A stretch of 64,000 nt of DNA, taken from assembly GCA_903813345.2 (NCBI GenBank), contig CAIIXF020000010.1:20349181-20413180 (forward strand). Reading direction: 5' to 3'. The position numbers and the translations under genes were made by a program. The notes under the pieces are model-generated. The model had not been told where the DNA came from and ran no database searches. It worked only from the letters and a program-made list of their open reading frames with translations. Numbering within the stretch: the stretch's first letter is position 1; each line of letters opens with the position of its first letter. The DNA comes from Owenia fusiformis. Taxonomy: Eukaryota > Annelida > Polychaeta > Sabellida > Oweniidae. Below are positions 5,419-43,800 of the stretch, piece by piece.

Positions 5419-5780
5419 ACTCCTATTTGATAATCATTATATTGTATTACTTGTCCAAGTCAACATTTCTGTTTTAACGTAAATGTTAGACTAATTTTAT
5501 TCAATAGGAATCCCAATTGTGAGTGTTCAAATTGATTGTTCATCGTTTGAGTATCACAGTAAAGTGATAATGATATTCAAGAATCATTTGCCTTTTATAC
5601 ACATAATTATCTCCAATCTAATTTACTAATTTTTTTGACATCTAAGTATTTGTTATTTTTGTAAACGAGAGTACCCTGGGTTATATTATTATGCTGAATA
5701 TATTTTCAACATGCATTACTTGTTACTGATGACAACCCTTAATAGAGAGGTAATAAAATAAAAACACAATCAACTTATTA

Positions 5781-16800: not shown

Positions 16801-19800
16801 CGTGTATTCTAAATAATATGTATTGTTCATGAAATACTATAACATAAAATTCCATCTATAAAATACAAATTTGCGCAAATCTTTGTATCAATTAAGCAGC
16901 TAATCATGTCAATCAATACAAATCCTTGAAATGAATGAACCGAACCGAAAAAAACCGAACCGACGGCTGATGATCCGAAAAACCGAACCGAACCGAACCG
17001 AAACGAACCGTCCCATCCCTAGTATTTAGAGGGACCAGGTCAATATTTCATTATGTCCCATAAATGAAATTTTATATCAAGTCCGATCTACTATGCCCGG
17101 GGATTATTAATGAACATTGATGGTGTTTTTTTTCAAATCAGAGGTAGTAAATTATTAGTAATGAATAATATAGTAGCCGGAACAGGACATTGGTCATCCA
17201 CCTCTGTTTACCTGACAACTTCTCAACTCTCAATAATATTTTAGGAAATTTTCACTGGAAAAACTTTAAAGCATTCATAACATCACACACTTTTTGTTTA
17301 ACATTTCATTTCTAAAAAAAGATGTAATTATAATGAAAATTGATGATTTGTTCTGTCCTGGCCACGATGTGTGCGATAATAAAATAGCATTTTATCCCAA
17401 AACATGAAGATTGATATATTGATTTAATCCCTTAATTTAATCAAATATGGGATTTAATTAAATATGGAATTAAAAACCCTCAAACCTATCCTGAATGAAA
17501 AGTGAACCACATCATCCCAATAATCATGACTGTAGTCACACCCTCATGATACCATTGTACAACCAGATCACAACCTCACATTGTCCTTTTTGACCATTAA
17601 ACCACATGAATTGAAAAATGTGTATAAAAGCCAAGAGTGTCCTATGGGACATCACTATTCACCAAAAGGGTCTCAAAAAGAGTGAGCTGAGCTGTTGAAC
17701 TGAGAGGGCCCGATATTTCATTACAAGATGAATCTCATGACAGTTGCCTTAGCCTTGATGTTGTCTGTTTTGACAGGTAAGCTTTTTAAGCTGCTTTTAA
17801 GAAAGTTTTAATGGTACACTTTTAAAAAAGGTCAGACAACAATCATATTAGGAATAACTCAAAATTATAGACCCATGCTCACAAATATGACTGCCTGAAA
17901 TCAGCCATGGTCGAATGCTAGTTGTTTTCTTGTATTCAATTTCGAAGTTGTATGTTTTCTAAAAAAGGTGGGGCTAAATCTGAATAATAATGTTTATATA
18001 TTCAGTCAATTAACTCTAGCATTTATGAATCTCAGATAAACATTAAATAAATAAACTGAATTTTACATTTGGTGACTATGGATATTTTAGGTACCCCCAT
18101 ACAAACAAGCAATACATAAGAAATAGGAATAGACTTTTTCATTTTGGAGATAGATAAAATATGATGACTTGATTAAATAAAGATAATATCTTAATGTTTC
18201 CAGTCAATGCTGCGAAATCCTGTGACGGTGATGGGGAGTGTAAGACTGGATTTTTCTGCAATCCTACAACTGACCTTTGTGAGAGACAATCTGAAGCAGG
18301 AGATCCATGCACATTCACCCGTCAATGCAAAGGATCATCTAATTGTGAAGAAGTTCCAGACAGCGACCCAATTGAGAAAGGTGAGAATACTCAAATCAGT
18401 CAATTCTTTCCTCATGTTATTCTTTCATAGTTATTAAGCAATAGGTCCTAATTAGTAATAATAAAAAATGGTCTGTTTTAATTTATTTGCTGTTATGATC
18501 GTAATAAACCATTACATATAATCTGGTAATTAATACATGCATGGTTCAAACACTTTCTTCCTTAAACAGTATGCACTGAGAGATGCCGAACAGATGTTGA
18601 CTGCGAGCAGTATGGTAATAAGCCCAAGGTAAAATACTGCACCACTGGTGGGCTGGGAACACTGGTAAAAGGATATTGTGAGCCAACAAAAGAAGAAGGA
18701 GAGGACTGCAACAGAAGCCCAGAATGTGAAGGCAAACTTTTTTGCAAACATGGCACGTGTGTAGGTAATAACACTCTCAAACATTTTACAGGAATCTCAG
18801 GATTTTTAAGCTTAGACTTAAATGTTGTCTTTTCTTAAAAAACAAGGCCTGGGAAAAGAAACATTATTTGTATCAAATAGTATAATCATTTACAAACTGG
18901 CTGTTAACATATGCATATAAATATTTAACCTGAATATACAGAGGCGGCAGAAGCTGTTACGTGTGAACTTGACTGCAATAGTCTAAGAAAGAACCCAAAC
19001 AACTTAAAACCAGGAGAGACAGTCAATGTCACTTACTCATGCACCTTTATTAGAACTGGAGAGTTTGGACCACTGCCAATCAAGGCAGAATTGCGGTGAG
19101 TTATAGTGATATAAGTGCATCCTGTATTAGTTGACCAAATCAGTAATATATAAGGCATAACCTCAAAAATCAAACTATTCAAACATATAAATATTCGATG
19201 TAGGATCATCAGCCAAATGAACCTTTTGGTTTCATCAAATAAATTGAATGCAATCAAATTACAGTCTGAATAAGAAAATCAAGCTTGGAAAAGCTCAAGG
19301 AGCATCACCAGTAACAATCAGTGGTTCAAAAGCAATGGTAGCCAGAAAAGGAGAATTCTCAGCAGAAGTTCAAGGAATGATGAAAGACTGTAAAAACCAC
19401 AGAAAACTTTGCCGTGCATCAAGACGCTGCATCCTTAAGGCTTAAACATATATTATTCAAATCATAAGACTTTTGACACCTTAACCTGAAGAACCTACAA
19501 CTCAACGTGCAAGAAAAACAAAAAAGTAGAACATATCATTTACTGTCCAAAATGTTTAATAAAAGTATTTTGTAAATATAGATCTATGATGACTTCAGTT
19601 ATTCTATTGAAATTTTATCAAAAGGTAAGATGTTTAGCATGTCTTATTTTTCTCACTGAGAATTGTTTGAGATATAGTGAGACTTTACAGACAAGATTTT
19701 AGGATGGAAAAATCCAAAATAGTAGTTTTTGCTAATTTCTTTTTACAAAATTATCGCATACAGCTACTGTTAACAGTAACATAGGCTTTTATAACACAGG

Positions 19801-22800
19801 ACATATGAAATTATTTTTAAAGCTACTAAATAGTTAAAGTATGAAAACTCAACTAGAAAACAACAATGCCAAAGCGTAGCAAATCCCATCAGCCATGGCT
19901 GGCACACAAAAAATGGCCACCATTTTCAAAATGGTTGCTCACTGTAGCCAAATTATCATCAGAAAGATATGATTCTAAGTAGGCACATATAAAATTTCAA
20001 CAAAATCGCACACACGTACATGTCAATAAAAGCCATTTTTCAAAATGGCCGCCTTCTACCAAAAGTGTCATAAGACAGTTTCCCATGCTTATAGTATTCA
20101 CATACCAAATATGAACAAAATGGCTCCACAACTTTTCGAGTTATAGTAAAAAATGTTAAAATGGTGGCCATTTTTCAAAATGACAGTTTTCTACAAAAAG
20201 TGTCATTTAAGTGTGCCATGCTTATTGTATTCATGTACTAAATATGAACAAAATCCTATTATATATAACCTTTTTTATATTTAAAACATATTGCTATTAA
20301 AGTTTTACATATTGTACCTTAATTACAGAAAAATCTGTACTAAAATGGCCACTATTTTTTAATGAGCCGCAATTTTGAAAATCAGCTTTCGAGCAGAACT
20401 CCCCATCGGGTATATGTGTACAAAATATGAATGAAATCAGGCCAGCTGTATTTGAGTTATTGCCTGGACAGACGGATGGACAGAGGGAGGCGTTCCCGCT
20501 GCATAAGTCATAAGAACTCATATTTATAACAAGTATTAAATGTCAAGTAATTCTTATCCGAATCATTCTATGTACATTTATTTTTGAATTTCAAAAAGAC
20601 ATATTACAATAGAAAAGCCAACAAAAGCAATTAACCTACCCAGCCTATTGCCAGGTATTGTCAGTCTATACCAAAAGTATACTAAAAGTATACCTTGTTG
20701 ATAGGTCTATACTGATACCAGACTGATACCATACCAATTAATAGGTATATATACTGAATATAGATCTGTAAATAGGTATGAAGATACTGAATATACTGAA
20801 AGTATACCTGTTTTACTTATGATTTTCAATAGTATACTGAAAGCATACCACACAAACTCTGATAAATACTGAATATACTGAAAGCATACCAGTTTTACTT
20901 ATGATTTTCAATAGTATACTGAAAGCATACCAAATAAACTCTGATAAATAATGATTAGACTGAACGTATACCAGTTCTACTTTATCATTTTATAATATAA
21001 ACGGCAAATGCAAAATTCATGATAAAACTATAAGTCAACAATCATTCATATGTAAGTTCTATTTTATGACCATTTGTTTCCACAACCTGTCCTATCAGAC
21101 TAGGTGGCAGGGGAGCATTCCTGCTCATAATTACATTGAATGTTTTATACATTGAAAACACAAAAAATGAGAGAAAGATATGAAAGATACAGTCATAGTA
21201 AAATTTAAAAAAGAAATACAGTTAAAATTTGAAAATTAAAACTTTGCATCAAAAATACATCATGAATAAAACTTGAATATAGTTAATATAAGAATATTAC
21301 TTTATTTGTGGTATGTCTTTTTGAAGTCTTCATAATCCTGCATCTAATTAATTAGATAATGTAATGCTAGAAATTAATAAGACTGCTATCCAAATTACAT
21401 GTACTAATTTTTCTCATCTGCAGAATGATTTAAAATTTAAGGATCTCATTGGTAGAGTTATATTCATCCATATCAGTCTACAGACTGACATGTTAAGACT
21501 GTCAGTATAGACTAAATGTTGACCTATAGGTATATACTGATACCATATTGAAAGTATATCTTTACATATATACTGAATGTATACCCGTTGGTATATACTG
21601 AAATTATACTGAAACCATACTGGTATGTATATACTGAAAGTATACTGAATGTATACCCATTGGTTTATACTGAAAGTATACTGAAACCATACTGGTAGGT
21701 CTAATTACCATAATTGAAACATACCTGTCAATGGAATCATAACATGGGACATATACTGAAAGTATACTGAAACTAGACTAAAAGTTGACCTGTCAGTATA
21801 GACTGAAAGTATACCTGTCAGTATATACTGACCATACCTGGCAATGGGCTGGGTACACTATGCCAAAAAGTAACATCCCAACAGGACTGTTTATAACACA
21901 GCAGATGTAAAACCACAACTGGTCAACAGGAAATAATTCCAAATGTGCCAACCAGATCAGACAAACAGAAACATCTAAAATGAAACCGCTTTCTCCCACC
22001 ATCATAAAATCATATTCAGTATCATTTTCAGCAATTTAAATTAAGCTTTTTAAAGGTATTTAAAATCACAAGCATGAACAAGAAATTAAATTGCTATTGT
22101 TAATGTCAGCGATAAAAAATTTGATGGTACAAAAATGGTGATACAACGATGATCATGACAATCAACTTCACGACTCTGGCATTAAGTTATATCTATATCA
22201 TTTGTGAAAAACATTGCAATCACAATAAACACAATCATGAACATCACTTTAGTAGTCAGATAGATATTCAACCACAAAATTGATTAATGTGCATGCATCA
22301 ATGACACCATCTCTTAATCAAACTCTCCGATTTCATTAATTAGTAATAATTAGAAGCTGTGACAATGAAGTTTAAGTTCGAAAGATAATTCAGATAAATA
22401 ATATTTCAAACAAATAAAGAGAAAACATCAATATGATATATGACTTATTAAAGCAGTTTATATTTTATATCACAACTACAAAGTGAGAAATATTTATGCA
22501 AGATCAAGAAAATGAAACACCTAAGAATACAACCAGTTATAAAGAAAAAAAAATCCCAAATATCCCAAACTATGATCTAATCCATGTTAAGAAACAATTT
22601 CTAATTACCCCCTCTCAAACAAACACATCATTTTGATAAAATTCATCTTGTGTGTGAGTTTTAAACAAAATCTAAGATATTTGTTTCTTTAGGAATAATT
22701 TCTAAATATTTTTCCTACTTCCTGTAATCTTACCAATACCCTTACTCATTAGATATAACAGTAAAGTGGGTGTAGCATCATAGTTGACATTATAGCTGCA

Positions 22801-25800
22801 TGAATAGTCAACACAACCACATCATGATTTTTTGTATACATAGAATAAATAAAAGGTCAGAATTGTAACAACTAAATGTAGAATTGTAATCTTGCCAATA
22901 CTGGGATATAATGAAGTTGAATAGAAAGTGGATTGTTTTGAATCTGCTATTGTTTGTAATAGCAAGAGCAGAAGCAGCAAAAGGTATGTAGCATTAGACA
23001 GATAATTCATTGTAATTAAATATACAAAAACATTAAAATCATGGACTGATTTCACAGAATGCAGGTCCACACTGCAGCAACAAAGGATGGGGTGCAATAA
23101 GGGGTCAAATAGCCCAATGGTCAGAATGAATGATTGTAGATGAAAAACACAGAATATATGCGAAATAGATATGTGGAATGTTGTGAATATACTGCCAAAA
23201 TTTCAAACAATAATATATTTATTACTTTGGTTAAAAATGAAAAACTTTTGCAAAAGTTTGCATGAAACTATTAACCAATATACGTACATCTTTCCATCAA
23301 ATATGAAAAAATGTATCTACTAGTATTCAAGGTATCGTTCGGACAGACAACCTGACTGATAAATGAGCAGACAGATAGAGGGCTCCACTATATCCCTACT
23401 GACCATTTTAAGCGACTGGTTTCATAATATATATTTACATACATAAAGGTACGATTGATATTACTGCTGATGATGAATACAACTTGTTTGTCAATGGTAA
23501 GAAAGTAGGTTCTGGTGATGCATGGAATCAGCCACAACACTACTCAATTGATAACCCAGAGAATGTCAAAGTGATTGCCGTAAAGGGTACGTATGATACC
23601 TACTCACACCAAACTAATTATAAGACCTTCTTGAAAATGTTGGAAGGGCTGACAATGTGTGTGAATAGATTCCTGACCATGTTTGTTTGTTTGTTTGTTT
23701 GTTTGCTTGTATTAATGTTTAACAGCTTATTGAGAGTAAGACAAAGTTTCACAATACAACCATAACAACCATAGTCAACAATTTTGGAAATATGCAAAAC
23801 ATCAATGTCTGCAATCCTATATTTAAAAAAATATATACATACAATCATTCAAGAAAAATAATGAAATGGTAAAACTGATTGAATATCATATCTGGACTGT
23901 ATGTACCAGTACATATCATATTTAATTATTCCTATACAGCATGGGACACTCTCTGCATAGTATCGGGACTCATTCTTTCATTCCGTTATGGCGATTTCAT
24001 TCTTAATACTAACAGTAGCTGGAAATGCGTCACTGGATATGTTGATCCATCATGGAATCAGCCTGGGTTCAATGACAGGTAATGTTATACAAATCTCACA
24101 ATTCACAATGTTTTCGTTATTATGCTTTTCTTGTGCTTATATGCAAACTGGCAGATAGATCTTTTAAATACATTGTACATAATATTTTGAAGATGAAGAA
24201 AATGGCAAAATAACATATGCGTTTCGCACATGATTGATATATTCAGTTTTATGGGGTTTTAAGTTGTACATCATCTATTTTCTTCACTTTTTGAAAATAT
24301 TTCAATAATTATAAAAACATATTGCTCAAATCAAAATCCAACCTTGCAGAGCTGATCGATGTCAAACATGACTTCAATAGACTAGATGGGAGTAGAACTA
24401 ATCTTATTTATGTCATTAAAAGTTCAGTCAAACTGATGCCATATTTGGAATCTACACATAAAATTACACCTAGAAATGTGGTTTTGAAAAGAGTTTAACA
24501 ACTTTGAAAATTTAGCCACCTGGTGGTGAAACTAAACTACCTACTCGCATTTGAGTATAAATTATAGTTTTAATTATTATTGGAAATGCAAAAACAAATA
24601 CTGAAAAGTCAATGCATATTTCAAGCATAAGAGTAAAAATTCACTGTGACTGGTTATTAAGCTAGCTGAAACAGTCATTAACGCTTCTGTAGAAACTGGC
24701 CCGCAGCAGTAGAATTTAGTACACACCGTGACAACTCCTATCATACTGTCAGAGTAGGGAGAAAAGATGGTAAACCTTGGTGGCCTACAATTGACAAGGC
24801 AGCAAGGGTGATTTGGACCAGAAATAATTGCAGAGACAGAACCATATACTGCAGATATAGTAAGTCAACAATATACAATTGTTGACTGATTTGGAGGTTG
24901 ACTGGGCAGATGTTAAACATTAATCGTGAACAAAGACTTAATTGTTGATTGAGAAATATCTAATGCCAAAGGGAAAAGACTAAAAACCTCAAAGAAACCA
25001 AGCAAGAAAGTAGTAAAACTTGAAACATCAAGATTAATGACTAGTTTTTTTCAGGAAAGCCCAGAAATGGATTTTTAAGTTCTTAAACAATTTCTACATC
25101 TAATCCTTCAGCATCTCAAGTGGTGATTAACTTGAAACTTCAAAATAAATGACTTATTATAGATGAAATTTCTTTCAGAAAAGCCCATAAAGGATTTTTA
25201 TAACAATGTTTTGGTTTTATAGTGTGAGGTTTTGAAAATCAAACTTGTCAACAAGTATCTGTAAGTGCATGTAAAATGTTAACAGCTTAATCAAAAGAGT
25301 AAGCTACATGTTATGTTACAGTACCATGGCATTTAGGCCTAAATGAGTATCAAACCTTTCAGATTCAATATAAGCATTTAAAAGCTCAAACTCTATCTCT
25401 TCATATTTTCTTTTAGCCTTGGAGGTCCCAAGTCAACCAAAAACCTGTAACTTCAAGAATAAATGCAAAGACAAATACTGGTGTAACAAAGGAACATGTA
25501 CTCCTATGGTTAATATTGGAGAAAAATGTAAAAAGAATGTTCAATGCATGGACAAGTCAAAATGCGTAGACAGTAAGAGTACTAATTACATTACATACAG
25601 GGTGGGCTAAAAAAACATTTTGATATTTTTTGACAATCCATGGATTTTGATAATTTCACAGGGCATACAGGGGTACACAAATTTATTTTTATAGTTGTTC
25701 ATGAAATTGTATTAATACATATTCAAGGAGCGTTCGATAAGAAATGTAAACCAACATTGGGGGTCTATTTGAAAAACTTCAGATTTCAGGATGCTTTTCA

Positions 25801-28800
25801 AAGCAACAATTTTAGACCGATATTGAGTAATGCCTCAAATCTAAATTACCAGATTGACATACTTCAGTCTGTCAGAGAAACATGTCAGATGTTCAGTATA
25901 TTCTGAAATAATTTCAAGACAAAAGCAGAAGTATCATAAGACAAATATAGTACCATGGGTACTGGGCTCACATGGAAATTAAGGTTTTAATATTTTGAGT
26001 ATCTAACAGTAAGAGCCAAGAATAATTTAAGTCTGCATAGAAATTTGGTTAATTTTGTACTTAAGTACTCAGGCATTGTTTCCTAGACTGCATTAAGACA
26101 GCATTCCTGCTAAAGTCATTCAAAGATCTGAAAACAACACCTTCGTGGAATGAATCAGCCAACAATACATCAAGTCCAGGGCTTAAATCTTTTAACCTTT
26201 CCAATCATAGTGAAGCATTAAAATCGTATCAAGGTATTAATATGACAAAATGCTACTTTCTGATAAAGTATAACAATTTACAGAGAAATGCCAAACAAGT
26301 AGGCCACCAAAGACCTGTACATTCAGTAATGAATGTAAGTACAGATACTGGTGTGACAATGGAATATGTGTTCCTATGGTTATTTTTGGAAAAAACTGTA
26401 CAAGGAATGATCAATGCTTAGGGCAGTCAAAGTGTGTAGATGGTAAGAGTAATATTATTACTCTGTAATCCCTTCATGACATTTTTATTATTTATGCAAA
26501 CAAATTTTTTCCAACCATATCTAAAAACTAACTTACACCAAAGCAATAACATTAAATGCCACAGCCTCGAAAATTATAACATTTTACTGAGAGATAATTG
26601 AATGTAGATGCCAAAAAAGGAGATATAAGAATATGCCAACGTATACAACTTTTTTCAAAACAATGAAGGGGAAATAAGGAATGACTGAATGGATGTAGTA
26701 CAAACAATTGTTATGTTCTTCTTAAACTCCCTAATACAAGAAAGAACAATAAAGGGAAAAGAAAGACATTTGACTTAATTCAAGGTCTTGATTGTAGGCA
26801 TTTGTGAGGAAACATGTAAGATTGATAATGAATGCTTACAATATGAGAATGGCAGAAAGAAGTACTGCACTACAGGAGGACTTGCTGCAATACTAAAAGG
26901 AAAGTGTGTTATGAAACATGAATTCGGGTACCGCTGTGGAAGAAGTCCAGAATGTCTTGGTAACATGATCTGCAAAAATGGGAAATGTAAAAGTAAATAT
27001 ATTTTATGTATATTTTACAAAAATGAACACATTTAATTGCAGAAAGTGAATCCTTTGCAGTGATCACCACAGGATTTTTTCTCAAGTGGGTGCAAAATTC
27101 TCATTTTCACAATTCAGAGCAAATTTGGTAAAATATGCTCATTTTTAATGATTTTTCTCATTTTCAAGTGGGTGCAAATGGATTTTCAGGTGGGTGCAAG
27201 CCTATTTTCAAAATCTCAGGTGGGTGCTGCGCCCACTTGCTATAATGCTGGAGAGATCTCTGCTTTGAATGGAGCAGTGCTCCCAGAGATCTCTCAAGTA
27301 AACTCCTTCTTTTATAAAACTACTATCTAAATAAGGAACTGAAATAATTGTAACATAGATGGTTCTTTCTTGATACAGTTCTCTTTATTACACATTTTCT
27401 AACAGAGGCTGAGGAAGTGGTCCAGTGCAGTCTGACTTGTGTTGGGCCAAACCCTAAGAAACCTGATGCTATCAGACCAGGATCAATTGTAAATGTTACC
27501 TACAATTGTATCTTCTTGCGAAAAGGAGAGTTTGGTCATATGGATGTTAGAGCTAAGATATGGTATGTTGACTAATCAGAATTTTCATGTAGAAACTTTA
27601 GAGAGTAATGAAAGTCACTACTGATAGAAATAATTATTCATAAATTATCCTATATTGTCACTAGAATTACACAAAAATTATTGTCATGCCTATCTACCTA
27701 AATAGGCATTTTGGAAACAAGTAATTAATTAATCATTACTTTATTGTAATAGAACACATTTTTATCTCAATGTTTGACAGGCTAAACAAACACAAATTGA
27801 TCGGCAGAGTGAATGGTACATCTCCCCAGATCTTCAGTGGTTCATACACAAAGGAAGCCGGAAAGGGGGAATTTGCTGTTGCACTAGAAGCAAGAATGAG
27901 CACTTGTGTGAACTTAAAGCCAACATGCGGGGCTAATAGACACTGCATCTTATTCGCAGGACAATAGAACAACAGTACACTTGCCTTCCAGACACATATT
28001 TTACATAGAAACAATACAATGGACATTTTAAAATTATCCTCAGCTGAATTTACCTCTTGTAAATTAAGTTTCTTTAATCGATTGTAGTAACTATGGATTC
28101 TAAGTAAAAGAACAAATTTTACAAAAGGTAAATTCACCTCTTGACTTTACTTTACGTACAAAAAAAATAAAGTTTTATGAAATTGAAAGAAACTGTTGTT
28201 TTATGATTACATGTGCGAATAGTGAAGAAGTCATATACCTAAATTCTGAGACGACCCAAAAGACAAGCTCAAAATACCATATTCCCATAGTCTTCTTTTT
28301 CAATTAAAACAGCACAAAACTGCATAAGTCATACAAACTCATATTTAAACCAAGTATCAAGTATTTTGGAATTTCATTAAAAGACATATTCCAATAGAAA
28401 AGCCAACAAAAGCAATGAACCTACACTATGCCAAAAAATAACATCCCAACAGGACTGTTTAATAAACAAAGCAGATGTAAAACCACAACTGATCAAAAGG
28501 AAATGAAGCCAAATGTGCCAACCAACGATCAGACAAACAGAGAAACATCTCAAATGAAACCACTTTTTCCAACCATCATAAAAGCATTCCAGTATAATCC
28601 ACCAGAATAACATCATTCTCAGTATCATTTTTAAAAATCTGTTTGGTAGTTTTCTTGTATTCAATTTTCAAGTTGTATGTTTTAAACCAGAACAACGGCA
28701 ACGCCAAAGCGTAGCGAATCCCATCGAACAGCCATGGATGGCATTTTTACAAACAAAGTATATAGCAAAAATGGCAGCCATTTTTCAAAATGGCCACCTT

Positions 28801-31800
28801 CTACCAAAAGTGTCATTAGACCATGTGCCATGCTTATAGTATTCATATACCAAATATGAACAAAATCGCTCCACTACTTTTCAAGTTATAGTAAAAAACG
28901 TTAAAATGGCGGCCATTTTTCAAAATGGCCACCTTCTACCAAAAGTGCCATAAGACAGTGTGCCGTGCTTATAGTATTTACATACCAAATATAAACAAAA
29001 TCCCTCTACTACTTTTCGAGTTATAGTAAAATACGTTAAAATGGCGGCCATTTTCAAAAATGACCGCCTTCTACCAAAAGTGTCATTAGACAGTATGCCA
29101 TGCTTACAGTATTCACATACCAAATATGAACAAAATCGCTCCACCACTTTTCGAGTTATAGTAAATTACGTTAAAATGGCGGCCATTTTGAAAAATGGCC
29201 ACCTTCTACCAAAAGTGTCATTAGACAGTGTGCCATGCTTATAGTATTCACATACCAAATATGAACAAAATCGCTTCACTACTTTTCGAGTAATAGTAAA
29301 ATACGTTAAAATGGCGGCCATTTTGAAAAATGGCCGCCTTCTACCAAAAGTGTCATAGGACAGAGTGCCATGCTTATTGTATTCACATACCAAATATGAA
29401 CTAAATCGCTCCACTACTTTTCGAGTTTTAGTAAAATACGTTAAAATGGTGGCTATTTTTCAAAATGGCGGCCATTTTCAAAATGGCCGCCTTCTACCAA
29501 AAGTGCCTTTAGACAGTGTGCAATGTTTAAAGTATTCACATACCAAATATGAACAAAATCGCTGCACTACTTTTCGAGTTACAGCAAAAATCGTAAAATA
29601 ACAAGTAAAGGCCGCCATTTTTCAAGATGGCTGCCATGTGCTTCTTTAATATCTACATTTCTAGCTTTATTAATGTCCTTTTTAATTTTTTTACATCTAA
29701 AACATATTGCTATTACACTTTTACATATTGCACCTAAATTACTGTAAATTCGGCACTAAAATGGCCGCCATTTTGAAATGAGCAGCCATTTTGAAAATTG
29801 GTTTTCAAGCAGAACTTCTACCCCAATAGGGTATATGCGTACAAAATATGAACAAAATCGGGCCAACGGTATTTGAGTTATTGCCCGGACGGACGGACGG
29901 AGGCGTTCCCTATATCCCTCCGAACTTCGTTCGATGGAAATAAATCAAACTGGATTTTACATTTGGTGACTATGGATATTTTGGGTACCCTCACACAAAC
30001 AAGCAATAAGTAAGAATTAGGAATCGACTTTTTCATTTTGGAGATAAAAGATGATGACTTGATTAAATAAAGGTAACATCTTAATGTTTCCTAGTCAATG
30101 CTGTGAAATCCTGTGACGATGATGGGGAGTGTAAGCCCGACAATCAGGTTTGTGGTTCGGGAGCACGGATCTCTATTTGCGAGTGGAGAAATATGTTCAG
30201 GAACGAGGAAATGGTGGTGCGCGACTAAAGATTTCATGTTTGTGATGTGAGAATTGTGGTTCAAGTGCAAGGAACATAGTTTGCGAGGTCAGAACTAATG
30301 TTCACATTGATGGAAGTCTAGGTGGTCTGTTAAGGGAAGGTAACTGATATTTTGGTTTAACAGATGATAAGATAACTGATATGGGACATAACGTGACGTT
30401 ACCATATCATACATTTCCAGTTATCTTCCCTTAAGCAGTGAGAGATATTGTTGAACTGTGGTGCCTGATTTGGTTCAAATATCAAAGCATTATGTCAACT
30501 ATAAAAAAGTTTTATTCTAAGAAAACTAAAAATACCAAAATCGACAATCATAATCGACCATCTTTGATGCACAGGTTACTGCCGTTATCTTCATTTGATA
30601 CTGACCAGTGATAAATAAGAAATAAGCAATGACTGAATGAATTTCGAATCAACAAATTGATGTGTAGTACTTCTTAAACCCCTTATATGAAGAGAGAACA
30701 ATAAAGGTCATAGAAAGATATTTTACTATTGTGCATACAGGCATATCTATGTTCTAGAATATCTGTTTTAATGTGTGATCATCACATAAAATGAAATGTA
30801 AGCAGGTTATTAAAAACATTTGCAATACTTTAAAATAAGTATCCGAGTAAAAAAAGTGTGGTTTGCAATGTGGGAACTCCCACGTTGAGAAATGTTCGGG
30901 AGAGGGGAAAAAGAGGTTCGTGATAAAGAATCAACATTTACGTTGTAAAAAACATGGTTCGGGTGGAAGGAACTTAGTTCGTAAGGTCGGAACTGATTAT
31001 CGCATTAGTGGAAGCCAAAGAGGCCTGGTATTGTTGTGACTGGAGATGGCAGAATGATAAAGAGTGGTAGGTCTTATGTCATAGAAAGTTCATAGAGGTT
31101 ATTCACTGAATGGACATGAAGTTGGGAATTATTTCTGGGACAATATGATAATAATATTACAGTAATAAAAGGACCAAACTTAAACCCTGTTAGCCAAAGT
31201 ATTTGTATATATGAGAGAAATTAACATCTAAAATGGAAAATTAAGAGAAGAAAAAGAACAATGCTAAAGTTTAACAAGTTGATAGACAATTTATACCATG
31301 ATATCCTTGACAATGTGAAATCATCCAACCACAAGCAATTATATGGATGTAATAAAAACATTATATTACGATACTAATAAATGATATGTCATCATAATTT
31401 TAAAATATCATGATTTCCTATTGGTCATAAACTTAGTAATCAAATCATATGTTCCATAATTCTTAACATTATAAAAGTATAAGGTTTTCTACCTAAAACA
31501 TCTGAGAAGAATTGAAATCAATATGAGTGCTTTCTTATTAGCAGTTGTCGTCATAGCAACAACAGGTAAGAGGAAATTACATTATTATCTTATACTTAAA
31601 TGGACTTTTTATTAAACATTGACTTACAAGAAATATTTACTCATAACAGAGATTTGCACTTTTTAATTTTGTTTTAGAGTAACTTCTGACCAAAAAAAAT
31701 CAGGAAAAGTTAGAAGTAACAGGTTGTTTATCTAGTTCTGATTCTTGCATTTTCTAAAACTTAAAGGGAACACATTTTTTCCTTTCATAACTTATTGGAC

Positions 31801-34800
31801 ACTACCTGTAAAATATAAGTTACCCCTAAAATATAACTTTGTAAAGATATTTAACTTGCACAATCCATTGAGGCTTTACTGTAATTTTCAAAGAGACTGA
31901 ATCGATTGACTTAATTAATTATAAGGTAAAGTATGTAAAATTCATTTTGAAACTGGCCATAGTGGAGTGTACAAAACCTATTATAAATGCAAATTAGAGA
32001 TCATTATGAAAAAACATTCTTGGGCTAAGTTAGCATCAGAATAATAATACAGCACTTTTAATATAAAAGAAACGATAAAACTTATTTTCTAAATAGGAGT
32101 GCTTGGAGTTCAAAGTGACTGTAACTTCAGCGAAGAATGCAAATATAGATATTGGTGTGACAAGAAGCTACATAAATGCCTGCCTATGGTAGGCATAGGG
32201 AAACCCTGCAGAAAAAATGATGAATGTATTCAGCTTTCTAAATGTGTGCCATTGGGAAATGGTAATATAAATTTTTTATTGTTCATTGACCTTTCCAAGT
32301 TTTGAGGTTATTTAAGTATTTAATATATGCATTTTGAAACACAGACAAAAATTATTTTTGCATTTGTGCAAATATTTTTTTTTAAAAAAGTATTTAATTT
32401 ATCAAATTACATATGTCTTTGTTTTCACTGAAGAAGAACTGTGATACAAGTCAGTGAAAGATAATACTTGTTGTATGTGTATACTACATCTTTAACAATT
32501 TAAAATAAAAACAAGACACTAAATGTAGAAATATATTCGATAAATGTTAACAGAATGGAGCACATTTGTAGGGACATGTGAGGAGACGTGCAGAGTTGAC
32601 AATGACTGCTTACAGCACAGGAATGGTAGAAACAAGTACTGTACTGCTGGAGGGTTGGGTGGAACACAGAAAGGCAGATGTGAGATGAAGCACGAGAGGG
32701 GATATCGATGTGGAAGAAGCGCTGAATGCCAAGGGAAAATGTTCTGCAGAAATGGACAATGCCTGGGTAAGTAAAAAGTTGAATGTGTACATTTATATCA
32801 AATAGAGCAAAATATTTGGAAACACTTAATGGTCAATAAGCAAAATAGCAACAACAAGAATGCATTGCAATGAAAACAAATATATAGCTTTAAATCTTAA
32901 GATATCTATAACCTGTCTATAGGTAATGACTGTCAATCTGACTAACAAATTTTCACATTTGTCATATTTCAATGCCCATAGTTCATTGCCATGTTATGGA
33001 CAATTTTGAACACTTAAAACATCTCTATAGGCATTCCTTTTATCAATTTCAAATCATTCTAATCAATTATATCAATAAATGAACCAGGAGAACAATGGAA
33101 TATTTTTTTCTAAATGTCATATTTTATTTGTGTTCATCTCATGACAGTGGCAGTGCAAATTGTTCAATGCCGTCTGAGCTGCTATGGACCAAACCTAGAA
33201 AGACCTGACCACCTTAGACCAGGACACATCGTTAATGTCACCTACCATTGTGATTTTGTACGCAGAGGCCAGTTTGGCCATCAGAATCTAACAGCTAGAA
33301 TCAGGTATGTTTATCTTACTTCTCCAGCAAATCAGTAACTTGAGTGTTAGAATGTAACAAAGCCATACTGTAGAATGATCTCAAAATGCATTTTAAACCT
33401 CCCTCCAATATATAGGCCCTTGGGATTTAAAAACTGTATGTTGAATACGCTGTTTCACACAAAAATAGCCATACTTTTAAAGTAGCTAGGCATTTTATTT
33501 CATTAGAAATGGCATTTTAATCATTCTAGAATACATTGGCGAAAAATTGGTCCACCTGAGTTAGTTACAACCTCATTCACTGAAAGAATCAGAGTTGTAA
33601 CAAAAGAGTTCTATAACACATCTGCTCCTAATTGTGTACAACAAAACATATTAATACTGTTTTTCCTACTTTAGATATGACAAAAAAGATTTACTTGGCA
33701 AAATCCAGGGTCTATCACCATTAAGCTTCACTGGGTTCCTTACCAAGGTTGCCAAGAAGGGAGAGTTCACTGCCAATATTGGAGCTGTAATGAAACCATG
33801 TGTGAACCTGAAGTCTTCCTGCCAGGCTAACAGACATTGTTACTTATATGCTGGACAAAAGTAGTAACATCAACTCAGAATATTCACTTGAAAGTATAAT
33901 TAACCATGACTTTCTCTTTGATTGTACTTTATGATATATCTGAATAAAATCACATTGCATTGAACATATTTACATGTATTCATGTTCTTCTTATCTTAAA
34001 TGAGAAACCACAAAGGGAAACATTTGCAATTAATATGATGTAATTTCTAAAAGCAAATCCAAACAAATCATATGAACTATATTAAACAAATGGGGAATAA
34101 GAAAGGACAGGAATTTTAAGTACCATAAAAAACTAGTATATAAGTTGATCAATGAATTCAGCTTAAACAGGAAAATGTCACTAATAGGGAGAGTGAGTAG
34201 TTTGTCCCTATTATATTTCAATTGCCCCTTAACAAAGGTGGTAAGAGGGTATTCTATGCAGGGCTGAATATAAATACGTATGTAGGTACAAGTGCCAAAA
34301 AAGGACCAAAAATTGTTACAAAATTTATCTAAGAGTAAACCAGCCAAATGGAAAACAAACCCCAAATATCCCAAACCAAAATCCACCACCATTCAAGTTC
34401 CATTATCAAAATTAAATCTTGTTGAAAAAAGATATTTTGACCAATTTACCTTGAGAAGGTAAGTGATGGTCAAGTATTAAATCTAAAAATCAGATTTGAA
34501 TTTCTGAGATCTTGTAGATGATTTTGAAAAAATTGGTCAATTTGATACCTTTTTGACCTTGAGAGGGTCATTGAAGGTCAAATCTCAAATCTAAAGTCAG
34601 ATTTGAACTTATGAATTTTTGATCATCCTCGTACGTAGTCATGTGAACCCTCTAAAAGGGGAGCATGAGAGCTCTGGGGCATCCTGTCCTATACAATATG
34701 CACCATTGCACCAATCATATCATGTGATCTTAGAGATCTAGGACATGTCCTCAAATATATGCAACCATCATGTTATCCTAACCCATAGAAAAAAAGCTTA

Positions 34801-37800
34801 TCTGAGAGACATTGTGTCCTTAAAAATATGCATGATGTACCAGTCATGTCAGCTGAACCCCTCAAAATATAGAGCATAGGATTCTAGAGTATCCTGGAAT
34901 TTACAATATGCACTTTTACATGTGATTCCTAACGAAAGAGCAGGTTCAAGGAGAGGCCTTGGACATCCTAGCCTATACAATTAACCATTAAGGAAATTAC
35001 AGTTGATTGTTATGAAAGTATCAACATTCCACATCTAATAATTAAATAAACAAACATAGACGATGATGATGTTCACAATTTTAATTAAAATTGAATCAAA
35101 CCAACCTGCCGTATCCTTGTAAATGTTAATTTGTTTATAATTACGTTCAACGCAACATTAAATATCGTAAATAGTGTTGATAAAACTGAAACATTATGAT
35201 CAATGAGATCAATCAACTTAGTAAACATGGGCATTGACTTTTAAGCAAGGCAACATGATGGGAAAGCATATACCTAGGGGTACAAAGTGATGGGTCATGA
35301 TGACTGTCATGGATGGGAAAACATTAATCCTCAATACAACCTAATAGATATAATTATATTGATAATTGGGCACACATGGACACTAAAAATACGTAAAAAT
35401 ATGAGAATTTTTACAATTTTGCCATTTTAGTTATTGGCATAGGATCTACTGACAGGCAGACAGAAAGTCATAATCTACATATAATGTCATTGATCAGTGC
35501 AGCAATATTAATAAATGAAATAAAAATGTTATGCACTTTTCAGGATTCATAACGTTAAAGGTCAAAAGGAAAATAATTTTTCAATGTTTAGATATCTGAG
35601 ACTACAATTATAAAGTACATGTACTGAATGGGATAATGAAGGGTATAATTATCATATGTTTCTTAACACTGGCTACATCATTAGGTAAGTGGTACTATAA
35701 TTAAGGAATAAAAGCCATGATTCTATGATCTATATAGTGCAATATATGTCTAGTGATTTTTTCTGATCATTTTCAGAAGACCAAAATCACAGAGCATTTG
35801 CCACATTTGGCAACTGTCAGAATAAAATCTGAGGTCAAATATTGTACCATAAATCATAGAATTGAGGTCTTTATGATTCTAATATGATGAACAAACCAGG
35901 AAAACAACGTTTCGGACTTATGAAATTTAGAAGTCATAAATAGAGAACATGCTATATAATTGGATAAATAGAGAGCATAAGTTTTTTGTACACCAGAATA
36001 ATATTAAATCATATATAAAGCTGAAAAATTCAATCTATTCCTTAATTTTGATTCCCATAGAAAGTATAAGATTTGTATCATGGCACCATATCTTACAAAG
36101 AAAGTAAATAAGAAAATGAAGAATACATTTATACATATTTACATGTATGAAGACCATGTCATATTAAAATGTAGAAAGGGTAAAACCTGTCACATCTGTC
36201 AGATCTTGTCACACCTTTTTGAAGCTAAAGCAAGAAAGTGTGACAATCATGGAGACTGCAGATCTGAGTGGTACTGTGAAGATGAAAAGAGTGGAAATGG
36301 AAGATGTGTAAAGACGATTAAACCACCAGGGGCTTGTAATAGAAGTGCACAATGTATTGGAGGATCCCAATGTGAAAATGGTGAGTCATATTAAAGGAAT
36401 TCTCGGTGCTAGAAATGGCAAAATATTGCTTCTGGGACGAGATCAAATGGCTCTGACTCTTCACCCAACCTATTTTGTAATTTAACAATCAAGACAATTA
36501 GCATATTTCAGAACATACCGAACCATATATATCCTATTGAAGCACATATAGGACAAAGTAACATATTTTTTGATCAATAATTTCAATTATTTCAAATTTT
36601 GCTTTGAAACTTTCGTACGATGCACTGACATAATAAATGATCAATAAATTCAATATATCTACATTTTATTATATATTACATTATATTTATGTCTAATTAC
36701 AAGGTACATGCAGTGAAAGATGCAGGGCTGATCCTGACTGTATAATATACAGAGAAGGCAGGCAGAAATACTGCACAACGGGGGGCCTGGTGGCTCTTGT
36801 GAAAGGTTACTGCATGCCAAAAAAGGAGAAAAGAGAATCATGTTCCCGTTCTCATGAATGTAGAAAGAATCTATTTTGCTCAAATTCTATCTGTAAAGGT
36901 AATGGTTTCAGTCAAAGAGCAACTTCATGTTTTAATATCTACAGTATCTTAGATTCAAACAAACACTCCATATATGACATCCTACTTTAAACAATTATAT
37001 ATGGTGCTTTCAGCGGCTGAAGAAGCTGTTGCATGCCGTATTGAGTGTGTAGGTCCTAAGCCAGGAGATCCTAGGATCAAGCCAGGGAATATGATCAATG
37101 TTACATACTCATGTACATTTGTTAGGAGAGGGGAGTTTGGACCTTTACCAATGAGAGCAGTATTAACGTAAGTTGTTAAAGGGTTTAAGACCCACACTTT
37201 TCACAAAAAGTCAATGTTTTCCCCATATTACAGTTTTACTTTTACTAATATTCATCTGTTGTAAAATATAGAATGGCTACGCAATGTTTTGATTGGCTAG
37301 AACATGATAAATAATATTAACTACAGACTACAGTATAATTGTGAATATCTATCAATGAACAGTTATATAATGTGTATTTGTATAATGAAATCAATATTTG
37401 AATGAAAAAAATTGTTTAATACAATGTGCTGTTATTAATGAAAAAATACTCAAATCATAATTTAGTGACACGGTTATCTTTCAGACTAAACAGGAAGTTA
37501 TTTGTCGGGTCTGTGAATGGCACTTCACCATTAACGTTCAACGGGAGTGTTTCACAGATAGCGCGAAAAGGAGAGTTCACAGCAGAAATAATTGGTCGAA
37601 TGAAACGCTGTAGGGGAGATAAAAATCATTGCCGATCAGCCAAAATGTGCATACATAACATAGGCCAATAGGTATTCACATATTATCTGAATAAGACAAT
37701 AGGAGCTGAAAATATTTAATCATTCTCTTAAAATATAGTTTGAGCACAGAACAATAATACTATAAGATATTGAATGACTTGAAGTGCAATACAGGATATA

Positions 37801-40800
37801 TTCTGCTTGAGAAATTCCGTATTGGAATGAGACGAAGTTGAGTGCCAATACTGACTATCGAGAGCAGAATATATCCTGTATTGTACTTCAAATCATTCTA
37901 TGACGTTTTTATCATGTGATTCTCTCTAATGCTACTGAGAATGTCCCTCCGTACCAATATTTTCTGTATTGCGATGGAGATGATTAATGGGGACAATCTC
38001 AATAGTGATACAGATTGGTACAGTATAAGAACTGACCAATCAGAAGGCTTCATTTTACAGATCATACGATAATATCTAGAACAATGTAATATAAAACATT
38101 ATAACACTATTCTAAGCAAAGATGCCATACACATTAAGGCACAAAATTATAGTACTTATACGACATTATACCCTATCATACTTATATTATAGAAAAGAAG
38201 AAAGAAGTAGCAGATAGTTATATACAATGTCTCACCAATAGATAGCACATCCCATAAATATCCAGATAAAAGAATCAGTGAAGATAGAACTACATATAAT
38301 GTTGAACAGCCTGTTTATTGTTTGTAGTATTTTGCTTTATGCAGAAGTTAATTTATGAAAATAAATATATGATTAATTTGAAGCACTATACAATGTATCT
38401 TGCTAAGTCTAAGTATGATTCTGGGGAATATACTTCTTGGAATAAGTTTCTTTTCATCATTATATAAATTAAATATACTATCTATCCATTTATTTTACCA
38501 AACCCAACACCCTGGCTTCAACAGTTATGATGAATTATTTTATATAGAGAGTTAAAATAAGTTTTATTCCAAGGAAATTTCAAAAATGAGGTAACACTTG
38601 GGTGTCACTTTCCTTCACTTCACTCTTATACTAAAATGTAATATCAAAATTTTCTTTACACAATGAATTAATTTTGATGGTGAACTGATAGCATCTGCTA
38701 GTCAAATGACCCTTGGTAGCTTACTGTTCAGTATAGTTATTTTAGAAGGAGGGTGCTTACATCTTAAATCCAACTAAATGTTTGATTGAACAATTCCGAC
38801 TTATTATGTGTAATCATTCTAATCTATGACCATTGTCTTATGCATGGAAATATGTCTAGTATAAGTGGCTCATAAGTTTCTAAAATGAGGAGAAAAAATT
38901 TTTGTAGAAGAGATTTAGGGTACTAGAATGTTGACAAAGTCACTACAGAGGGTAAAGTTTAGCAGGCGTGAGTCCTGACCGGATGTTTTGCAAAGCTCAT
39001 GATAGTTTCAGGAAGTGAAAAATATATTGACTATAAAACTAAATCATTTTAACATGGTAAACTATAAAATTCATGTCGTGGAACATTTTAAAAACCACAA
39101 GTAAGGTTTGATACGTGAGGAAATTTCATGACATGTTTATCGATGTTAACTAACATGAAATACTACAAATCATGCTTGACATTTTAAAAGTCGTGTTCAT
39201 GTTGTAAATTGTTCTAGTATTTTCTCATTTACAACGCCTACTTTGCTTTGAGTTTTCAAGATAGAAGGTAAACAGTTTAGGGGAATATTCCTTTACCAAA
39301 GTCAACATGTGTTATATCACGTTCATAAACTCCTAACTTGCAACTCACAACTAACATGCAACTCATAAATAAGATTTAGTAGTCATGCACCATACATTTT
39401 TATTAATAAATTTCACACCATAACGAACACTATAAACTCTCAGAGTTCAGGATCACAGACACAATTTGTTTCCCTGTTACTAAGGAGCTGGCAGAATTAT
39501 GCAGAGTCTTATAATATATCTCATAGTTGTGGTTGTGTTCACAGGTAGGCATTGTGAATTAAAAATATTATATACATATTATAAATTTAAAAACCAAATT
39601 CAAAATATAATGGCCGGAACATATAAGGTATGTACACTCAGGTAGAATATATAGTTATCACTATAGACTTGCTACAGTCACAATAAGGGTTGGTTTTGGT
39701 TTGAATGAGTATTTTGTCATATTTGTCTAATTTTTCATCAAAATTTGGAATCAGCTTTTCCCCTTGGCTAATGCAATTGCAGAATTCATTATTTTAACAT
39801 GCAGAAAATGGAAGGAGTGCAAAGAAAACATTATATTTTGATCATATAGGGTACTTTTAAAAAACTGAATCAAATTCATCTTAGAACATTTTGACTCCTG
39901 GTACTTGGGGGTGCAAATGGCTTACTGCATTGATCCTATATAATTCTATGAAATGACTTACTAAACATTTGCTATTGTTGTTTGAAGTTGAAGCGAAAGA
40001 CTGTGATGACCATGGCTATTGTCCCTCAAAATGGTACTGTAAAGATGGAAAATGTGCAAAGATGATTAAACCACCAGGGGCTTGTGATAGAAGCGTAGAA
40101 TGTATTGGAGGATCCCATTGTGAAAGTGGTGAGTAGTATAAACTGCATGAAATCAAGACCTTCTAGTAATTTCTTCAAATACCAAGCTGGTCTAGGGACT
40201 CCACGTTTTTAGGTGTTTAAACAGGCATTTGAAGAAGACTTGCTTGGAGCTTTTGTCAACAGAACATGAAAATAGTCTAGATATTTCTTTGGATGCAATT
40301 GCTAGACGTACCAAGAAAAACTTAGTTGTACTAAGACTGATGTGGCAATTATCAAAATTACTTCTGATTGCTCATAATGCAATAGATTAGTATATATTGT
40401 GGCCAATGCGTTGATCAAATTGGTTCCATTGTGGAAAAATATAATAATCTAATATATTGGATAGACCACAGATTTTAGTAAAAATAAAATAATTGAACTT
40501 ATTTAGTCATTTGGGATCTGCTAATGATGGGCAGAATTTGACTAGTCATACCACTGAACTAATACTAGATATCTGCCTTCCAGTTGGCTGGTCTGAATGG
40601 TTAAATCAAGATAAACCTAGTGGTAAGGGTGATTATGAATTAACAGAGGATTTTAGGGAAGAAGGCGTAAGCATATTATATGATTATAACAATCCTTTTA
40701 AGCTATTTTTGATTGACTCCATATGGTATCCAAATTCTATATTAAGTCGTCATTAATATTGTAAACATTCTACAAATAATATCTTTATTTGATATACATA

Positions 40801-43800
40801 TCTGATCCAACTGAATTTTATAACAGATATTCAATGCTTACATTTTGTCATATATGCTAGATGCTGACATGCGACAATCCAACAGCAATTGAATGCCGAA
40901 CAGTAGAAACCCATATTCCTGCTGCTGAAACAGGGCAAGTGTTTGATACATCAACCAACTGCACTGTAGAAGGGGGATTAGGATGCACCAATAACCAACA
41001 GGAGGCAGGTAGTAGATGCCAAAATTATGAAGTGAGATATTACTGTTCAGGTGAGTAAACTTGATTGTGAAACCACACAATATTACAAAAATATATCAAG
41101 CTCTAACACCCTATGTAAAGTCAGTGTCACTTTATGAATGAAGTGTAGGTGATTTTTGAAAAGCAATTAAGTTGAATTCAGTGAATTCAACTTAAATATT
41201 TTTTTAAATAACTAGAACAATTTTATAATGAATCTTTAAAGAAATTCATGTCATATTTTATAGACAAAAGATGTACTGAGAGATGCCGAGCTGATGCTGA
41301 CTGCTTGATGTACAAAGGGGGCAGGAAAAAATACTGCACCTCAGGAGGACTAGTGACCCTTGTGAAAGGCTACTGCGAACCACAGAAGGTTGATGGAGAA
41401 GCATGCTCTCGTCATCAAGAATGTCAAAAGAAAAGATTCTGCAAAAATGCAATATGTAAAGGTAAACATGATAATCAACAATTTTAATGCTTGAATGTGA
41501 TTATGTCGAAAATAAATTAAAAGGGTCAAGATTTAAAACAAACTGTGCATAAAACTGTATATAAAACAAAAACAATATCAAAATATATATGAATAAAATG
41601 GTGGTCACACAGACTGATAATAAGCTTCTAAGTAATTTTAAACGAAATACAGATCCTATTTTGGATGAATTTACAACTGTCTGTGTTCTAACTATTACAA
41701 ATATGTATGTTACTTTCAGAGGCAGAAGAAGCGGTTACATGTCATATTTCATGTGTAGGTCCTAATCCCAAAAACCCACAGAGGATCAAGGTTGGTGACA
41801 ACGTATATGTGACATACTCATGCATCTTTGTTAGACAAGGACCACAAGGACCAATGTACATTGAAGCAGAGCTTATGTGAGTACAAGAAACTTTGGTCAC
41901 TTTTTACTTTTTAATTTTTGAGAGATTAAGTCAGAATTAATGTTATATTGTCACCTGAAAGGTTACTCATCTCTCATCTCTCAATCTTATATACCACTTA
42001 CACTTGTGTCTCTCATAAACAAGCCATTATCAAACTGATCAAATGCATCTACAAGGTCTGCAAAGTTCAATTGACTCTAAATCTCATTTATTAGTACCTA
42101 ACCCTTTCTTTCACACAATATACTCTTTCATTGTAGCTTACATAGAAAATTCATAGTGGAATCAGGGAATGGCACCTCACCATTGACGCTCAGTGGCCAC
42201 CATACTGAACTTATAAAGCTTCCTGGAATATACACATATGAAATACGCGGCGTGATGAAAAACTGTATTAACCATAGGAAGTACTGCAGTTGGGGGAAAA
42301 GATGTGTTATTTATGTGTAATTCAACATTATGAAGTTTTATTTCAGATCAGTAAATTTACTTGTAAGTCAATATAAGACAATATTAGACCCCTGAAATAG
42401 AAAATATATTAATGAACTTTACATCATATTTATACTTGTTTTGTGAATATCATTTGAGGAAGGAGGACTTTAATTAATCATAAGGGATTATGAATTAAGA
42501 ATTGAGATTCTATGATAATGATTTAGGAAATAGCCATGCGAATATTGCTTATGGAAAATGGTGATAGGAAGTGGCAATAATTTTGTGTAAGCCTTGCATG
42601 ACCAAATATGGTCATTTTGACCAAATATTGGTTGTTGAAAGGATAAAACAACAATCTTGAATTGTTGTTGGGAAAAAGTAGAGGTGAAAAGCCTTTATTT
42701 TATTGGATGCGTATGTATGCTATATAAGAAGGCTGTTTGGAGACAGGGGTTGAATATAGATTTATTTATGTGCTTGAGGGGTGACTCGTAGATACACTGT
42801 ACCTGGGTAAATGGTGGCAGATCAGTGTCGCCCTCTTGTGGAGAGAGAGGAACTGATTGTTGACGATTAGTCAGTGGTAGTAACTGAGTAATTAGTGAAG
42901 AACTCTACAATATATGCATGCAATATGTGGTCATTTCCTTGTGATAAATTTTGCATGTTACAAGACTTATGTAGTGTTAACACTTCCATGTGTTATCACT
43001 GGGCATGTTACTTCAGACTTCCATGTGATATCATTTGCATGACATAAGGTACTGTATGTTGTTTTATCAATACCATGTGACATAAGTTACAGTGTCATTC
43101 ACTTTTTGCTTCTATGTAATATAACTTGCATGCTCCTAAACTTAAACTAATTGAATGAAAAGAACTGCAATTAAGTAAACATTTCAATTTTGTAAAAGTA
43201 GTCATATAAATATCAACAAAAAAATAAAATAAGAATCACAATAGGCAAAATTAAGAAACAAACTAAACACCAAACTTAGGGTAACAAAACATATGGTTTA
43301 AACACCACACTTAATATCTCAACTCCAAGTAGGGTATTGTACTAACCTGTTTTGCCTCAGCTATAGCTCCAAGCTCTAAGATACATCCAGGACGTGCTGT
43401 TGACTGCAGACTCACGATGTTAACCAGGTGGCTCTGTGCTTCAACTTCTTCTGGGGAGTTCATGACGTAACATGAGCTGTTACTGCTTGATTCACTCAAC
43501 ACCTATAAACAATATGAACATGTTGTTTGTTGTTTGTTGAATTTTGTATGAAATTGTAATTTTGAATTTTGGATTGCATTTAAACATTTGTGAACAAGTA
43601 AACAGCAACTCCCCGGAAAAGCTACCTACCAAACAAAACATATTTTATCAAATCACTTGTCATTTTGAACATTTCATGATAGAAATTTGCTCAGTGGGAT
43701 TATCATGTTTTGAAATTTGAATTAATTGCAATTGTTGTGTTGTGCTTTTATTCTTTGGCCAAAATCAACTTTTCTTCTTTCATATACCTGAACGGCTTAA

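Follow-up and report, generated by a model that had tools for sequence, protein, structure and literature searches.

Nested genes and their closest described counterparts

In vertebrates, the LRRTM genes lie antisense in introns of the alpha-catenin genes and arose together with these hosts by duplication, and frog lrrtm3 survived the loss of its host ctnna3 (PMC3933685). A comparable arrangement is found in the annelid Owenia fusiformis, in a stretch of 64,000 nucleotides (nt) of assembly GCA_903813345.2 (contig CAIIXF020000010.1, below C10, positions 20349181-20413180; this whole stretch is called the window). Five genes for cysteine-rich proteins, A to E, lie there on the plus strand inside one intron of a host gene, DMXL, which is read on the minus strand. 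As in the LRRTM/alpha-catenin case, genes for extracellular domains lie in a large intron on the strand opposite to their host, appear to have been duplicated together with the host and seem to outlive it (PMC3933685). Unlike the LRRTM genes, which are given there as one gene per intron, A-E are five tandem paralogs, and the decayed exons of the host occur in one genome with the intact host. Relative to known nesting, the five-gene tandem family and the fossil of its move within a single genome stand apart. No published report of a DMXL-nested cluster was found among the matches listed for WxxW, for EB/Dickkopf, for clusters of nested genes and for gene nesting combined with segmental duplication.

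The encoded proteins recall several described families. They share small cysteine-rich modules with the EB/Dickkopf_N superfamily, but differ from it in that the core is followed by a six-cysteine domain. Dickkopf proteins carry a second cysteine-rich domain, of the colipase type, at the C-terminus; the C-terminal domain of A-E, having no credible match in Pfam or the PDB, is not recognisable as one. The N-terminal domain of B is similar to the lectin in PDB 6t0q, 6t1d and 6kbj, which we take to be that of Pleurotus ostreatus with a jelly-roll fold; its profile aligns to two stretches of the chain. Unlike in that lectin, only the first two thirds of the B domain align, and the domain, single and joined to EB modules, belongs to an animal protein; the likeness is one of sequence. 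Gene E resembles the mucin WxxW proteins through a two-exon PF13330 insert. It differs from the gel-forming mucins in lacking a mucin-like repeat region and in having a single WxxW, placed between the EB and 9-Cys modules.

Genes A-E are very probably real, constrained genes, and their cluster was in all likelihood already nested antisense in DMXL at the time a copy of the segment arose at a distance of about 15 Mb. This degree of confidence covers anatomy and history and does not extend to the role of the proteins.

The cluster in the DMXL intron

The first-pass annotation of the window had proposed five multi-exon plus-strand genes nested antisense in one DMXL intron, and this arrangement was confirmed; the exon numbers 16 and 17 for the two flanks are those of that annotation. 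Within 17728-42320, all five genes run from ATG to stop without internal stops over five to nine exons, with GT-AG borders in all 26 introns. The host intron and its flanks, and the exons of the nested genes, are as follows (window positions).

15175-43346, minus strand: host DMXL intron; length 28,172 nt; phase 0 at both borders, from the minus-strand donor and acceptor
43347-43502, minus strand: DMXL exon 5' of the intron, from splice sites
14957-15174, minus strand: DMXL exon 3' of the intron, from splice sites, lower edge approximate
10794-12158, minus strand: open frame with the DMXL exon holding part of the Rav1p_C domain (E=1.4e-11)
17728-19445, plus strand: gene A, 5 exons, 251 amino acids; 17728-17776, 18204-18380 (EB), 18570-18764 (9-Cys), 18942-19095 and 19265-19445 (C-terminal domain)
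22911-27967, plus strand: gene B, 9 exons, 456 amino acids; leader 22911-22983; lectin-like 23449-23586, 23940-24078, 24693-24859; two EB 25417-25572, 26284-26442; 9-Cys 26798-26992; then 27406-27562, 27781-27967
31523-33864, plus strand: gene C, 5 exons, 249 amino acids; 31523-31565, 32097-32261, 32572-32766, 33148-33304, 33675-33864
35636-37671, plus strand: gene D, 5 exons, 246 amino acids; 35636-35684, 36225-36380, 36704-36898, 37014-37167, 37485-37671
39499-42320, plus strand: gene E, 7 exons, 332 amino acids; 39499-39544, 39988-40128, 40584-40666 and 40861-41050 (WxxW), 41264-41461, 41720-41876, 42137-42320

The 9-Cys exon measures 195, 195, 195, 195 and 198 nt from A to E, as annotated at first. 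The reported constancy of 7, 9, 3 and 3 cysteines per shared module was found in A, C, D and E, while B has two first modules (with 7 and 8 cysteines) followed by 9, 3 and 3. Without the leader exon, the totals are even in all five proteins (22, 34, 22, 22 and 28); the extra cysteine in the second EB exon of B makes its total even, and one cysteine in the leader exon of D is left out. The intron phases recur: the introns that follow the leader, the EB exon and the 9-Cys exon are in phase 1, and the one within the C-terminal domain is in phase 2. A signal peptide and one common module order had also been claimed. All five N-termini are hydrophobic, as read from the translations without a signal-peptide predictor; the order is interrupted by additional domains in B and E that had gone unreported. 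A nine-cysteine pattern occurred at five places in the window, all of them in A-E, and at none in 20 Markov resamples, a weak test as the pattern was written with the genes already known.

The host is named from three open frames that match Rav1p_C, one of which does so weakly (E=0.058). Nesting was established as five complete genes (5/5) inside one intron, with the host judged from its Rav1p_C exons and not as a whole gene. The large Rav1p_C exon at 10794-12158 occupies a single place in the genome, namely the window.

Distribution in the genome and the second locus

The genome searched comprised 498 Mb in 525 contigs, and all counts of places in it are lower bounds. At E<=0.001, the 9-Cys exon of A has at least 24 places, one being a partial match. 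Twelve of them lie at C10:5.14-5.26 Mb and five in the window; of the others, three are on C8, two on C12, and one each at C10:15.43 Mb and on C9. The first C-terminal exon of B occurs at at least 29 places. The earlier view of a tandem expansion of secreted-looking, disulfide-rich proteins is supported, except that the family is not confined to the intron, since 19 of the 24 places lie outside it.

The array at C10:5.2 Mb is situated about 15 Mb from the DMXL intron on the same chromosome. An inverted colinear match connects the two loci and spans most of the intron, including gene introns and intergenic DNA, mostly at 70-86% identity in blastn. The shared elements are listed below.

Window 12275-45825, against C10:5175218-5266828 and just beyond, no strand assigned: shared inverted segment, in blastn pieces
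C10:5260-5262 kb: A', counterpart of A
C10:5227-5231 kb: B', counterpart of B
C10:5194-5196 kb: C', counterpart of C
C10:5188-5190 kb: D', counterpart of D
C10:5182-5186 kb: E', counterpart of E

Remains of DMXL exons stand at both ends of this block. The relic of exon 43347-43502 (C10:5176021-5176182) has two in-frame stops and 24 nt missing, and that of exon 14957-15174 (C10:5264855-5265108) has four frame-breaking indels. Of an exon at about 44664-45299, the first 282 nt are kept, with two frame-breaking deletions. A piece of the DMXL frame 12389-12757 is also present at the second locus. The decayed exons at both ends, together with the single place of the large Rav1p_C exon, indicate that the block came out of DMXL with the five genes inside it.

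An unrooted tree was built from 22 rows having both the 9-Cys and the first C-terminal exon, without D' and the members added afterwards. In it, C joined C' with support of 100/100 and E joined E' with 100/98. B, B' and a neighbour were grouped at 89/93, and A, A' and two others at 98/97. On the other strand, a further block at C10:5143-5168 kb contains three A-like genes, one C-like gene and one E-like gene without WxxW, five members of the family in all. No DMXL remains were found in that block.

Coding constraint and fate of the copies

The copies have taken different courses. A' has a stop two codons ahead of the aligned end of A and length changes of +9, +3 and +9 nt; B' is open to near its end, with length changes of +27 and +6 and a last exon that aligns over its full length with TAG; C' is complete, with one GC donor and no length changes. 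All length changes in these three are multiples of three, and the proteins are 77-95% alike to those of A, B and C. The frame of D' is broken in three exons, by +7, +7 and +4 nt. The EB exon of E' carries an insert of about 1 kb (C10:5185577-5186601), which is flanked by TA on each side, has long inverted ends and resembles a mariner-type element. An end similar to that of this insert was seen at window position of about 25600. Splice sites are preserved at the second locus: all 25 acceptors that could be aligned (of 26) are AG, and the 24 aligned donors (of 26) comprise 23 GT and one GC.

The ratio of nonsynonymous to synonymous substitution (dN/dS) between the loci was 0.19 for A (224 aligned codons), 0.35 for B (420), 0.10 for C (228) and 0.41 for E (305), the last covering time in which E' may already have been dead. 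Bootstrap upper limits for these four were 0.20-0.65, and a ratio of 1 was reached in none of 1000 bootstraps for A, B and C and in 1 of 1000 for E. By this codon comparison, values of 0.10-0.41 in four of five pairs show coding constraint. For the D pair, the ratio was 0.66 when all pieces were taken, some of which are out of frame; 51 codons from a single exon gave 0.24, with 1 being reached in 12 of 1000 bootstraps. Synonymous divergence (dS) ranged from 0.22 to 0.39 across the pairs, which would allow a single event without proving one.

Modules and likely role of the proteins

The family had at first not been recognised; most of its modules can now be placed. In an alignment of 11 members, 16 cysteines of the cysteine-rich core, composed of EB and 9-Cys, are invariant. 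All 11 members scanned, of the 24 places, matched EB, Dickkopf_N and DUF7107 (PF01683, PF04706 and DUF7107) at E<=1, with best values of 3.7e-11, 2.7e-11 and 4.2e-10, respectively. For gene A, EB narrowly passes its cut-off of 24.3 bits with the cut-out region (24.9) and stays below it with the whole protein (20.2); Dickkopf_N is below its cut-off of 25 in both cases (22.6 and 17.3). From these profile matches the core is assigned to the EB/Dickkopf_N superfamily. The closest solved structure, the N-domain of DKK4, is a weak match (E=0.16). A PDB profile search with the 9-Cys exon alone gave a best E of 7.1, and AlphaFold2 on this exon (five window rows) gave a mean predicted local distance difference test score of 60.6 and a predicted template-modelling score of 0.39. 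The C-terminal domain contains six invariant cysteines in 15 members, among which no credible Pfam match was found; the PDB search gave none either (best E=0.99). This shared domain is the sole module of A-E without a family placement.

Two genes of the cluster carry further domains.

23449-24859, plus strand: lectin-like N-terminal domain of B, three exons, from profile comparison with PDB lectins
40584-41050, plus strand: WxxW domain of E (PF13330), two exons, E=4.7e-23, 82.1 bits against a cut-off of 22.4

A profile built from B, its copy B' and two relatives on C11 matched the PDB entries named above ('Lectin') at E=1.1e-16 over positions 1-97 of 144, and also a rhamnosidase at E=2.1e-4; Pfam gave only sub-threshold matches for these exons. 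In the genome, the third lectin-like exon was found at at least seven places, of which five are on C11. At C11:20.43 and 20.93 Mb, PAN_1 and Lectin_C open frames of the extracellular type lie near a lectin-like domain such as that of B. Within A-E, the WxxW domain occurs in gene E only, and E' has it too. Its second exon is found at 43 places, the nearest being E' and the next a cluster at C10:28.5 Mb. Both additions are framed by phase-1 introns, which fits exon shuffling, and, being present in B' and E' as well, they are older than the copying event. No Ser/Thr/Pro repeat region of the mucin type was seen by eye in the five proteins.

The Dickkopf_N match in all 11 members scanned, with a best E of 2.7e-11, and the weak likeness to the DKK4 N-domain would be expected if A-E were Dickkopf-like Wnt antagonists. 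EB and DUF7107 match the same 11 members about equally, which points to a superfamily of small knots; moreover, the C-terminal domain is not recognised as a second Dickkopf domain, and lectin and WxxW additions do not suit a Wnt antagonist. This identity is therefore unlikely, and a Wnt-antagonist role is less likely than one in mucus, tube, cuticle or defence. Secretion, disulfide pairing and the binding of glycans or mucins are predicted for A-E. Most simply, A-E would be secreted proteins built on a shared knot and C-terminal domain, of which two acquired modules found elsewhere in this genome close to lectin-type domains or within WxxW arrays. The core module might bind partners, and the added lectin or WxxW module would set the glycan or mucin target. 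A location outside the cell, in a mucus, tube, matrix, cuticle or innate-defence layer, is a plausible role, though somewhat short of a probable one.

Origin of the cluster

In the account considered most probable, A-E encode proteins in which a hydrophobic leader is followed by one 7-Cys EB/Dickkopf_N-like module or by two, a related 9-Cys module and the six-Cys C-terminal domain. B gained its lectin-like domain and E its mucin-type WxxW pair, probably by exon shuffling. The nested cluster came first, and the segment matching window 12.3-45.8 kb was then copied elsewhere on the same chromosome. After copying, the DMXL exons decayed and further copies arose; the frames of A', B' and C' stayed nearly full, while those of D' and E' were broken. 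The intron cluster is, on this account, the parent or the sister of the larger array at C10:5.2 Mb.

Several points weigh against parts of this history. The second locus is an unclean copy, about 92 kb against 33.5 kb and with extra genes, so that a part of the history is missing. One relic, that of the DMXL exon at about 14437-14537, is 87/99 identical, ungapped and without a break, and the DMXL frames 13307-13639 and 44251-44490, which lie inside the shared segment, had no match at the second locus (E<=0.001). In the tree, A' is not the exclusive sister of A. The unequal dS values could possibly reflect conversion or more than one event, and the two ratios of its pair make constraint on D itself uncertain. 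The two exons flanking the intron had no Pfam match, PDB searches with DMXL pieces were also empty, and these exons are in part assumed to belong to DMXL. The proposed role, finally, is read from the modules only.

Alternatively, the array at C10:5.2 Mb could be the older home and the intron cluster a derived copy that landed in DMXL. The array is larger, with 12 places of the 9-Cys exon against 5, and includes the second block of other orientation in which DMXL remains were not found; the tree is unrooted, and an origin of the family outside DMXL is possible. Against this, both ends of the colinear block carry DMXL remains in host order and orientation; they are explained only by an exit of the copied piece from DMXL, and they leave room for an earlier family origin elsewhere. 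This alternative is judged to be distinctly improbable.

The cluster could also be a regulatory feature, with the antisense transcription of A-E adjusting DMXL and the proteins being of lesser importance. In Caenorhabditis elegans, genes nested on the opposite strand can change how their host is transcribed (PMC12274878). The coding constraint on four pairs and the persistence of copies without a DMXL host speak against this explanation, which is held to be very improbable. Of the earlier statement that transcription of A-E opposes that of DMXL, the antisense orientation was read directly, and an influence on DMXL is a possibility.

Uncollapsed haplotypes or an assembly join could be imagined since both loci are on one large assembly unit, C10, but such an artefact is scarcely credible with non-coding identity mostly at about 70-86%, differing gene content, the large Rav1p_C exon in one place and no N in either the window or C10:5140001-5268000. 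An assembly error had been named at the outset as a refutation of the nesting; the repetition of gene order at the second locus with DMXL remains at both ends speaks against it.

Other sequences in the window

Between B and C lies a fragment of the family.

29943-30137, plus strand: A-type gene fragment (intron 1 and exon 2); 29947-30046 has 92% identity to window 18053-18152

The fragment is 86% identical to C10:5262413 over 195 nt. The stretch 30611-30734 matches at 83% the sequence directly before the 9-Cys exon of gene 5215 in the C10 array; the DMXL intron possibly once held another B-type gene, of which this is a remnant. A 135-nt tandem repeat is found inside longer dispersed repeats at 28633-29607 and 20023-20480, and these regions also match window 3157-3953 and C10:5239961.

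Adjoining DMXL at 43923-44319 is a unit of about 86 nt in three to four copies, each with the exon end LLTGGASGKSQ or a variant followed by a splice-donor-like stretch. On the DMXL (minus) strand, a single-exon rhodopsin-type G protein-coupled receptor is situated at 4438-5433 (7tm_1, E=2.5e-14); a search with it gave 130 matches across the genome. Open frames before the window start resemble what we take to be DMXL C-terminal exons, for which Pfam gave no telling match, and the receptor gene may be nested in another DMXL intron.

Significance

The origins of nested genes are mostly guessed from comparison between species, whereas here a marked copy exists inside one genome. It is conceivable, if doubtful at present, that the intron of an indispensable host shelters a young family of secreted proteins and is its point of departure, copies that leave with a piece of the host either decaying or multiplying, and that the C-terminal domain represents a new extracellular family. 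That domain and the fusions with lectin-like and WxxW modules make the family worth annotating. The two loci provide a natural experiment on whether a secreted family evolves differently inside and outside a conserved host intron.

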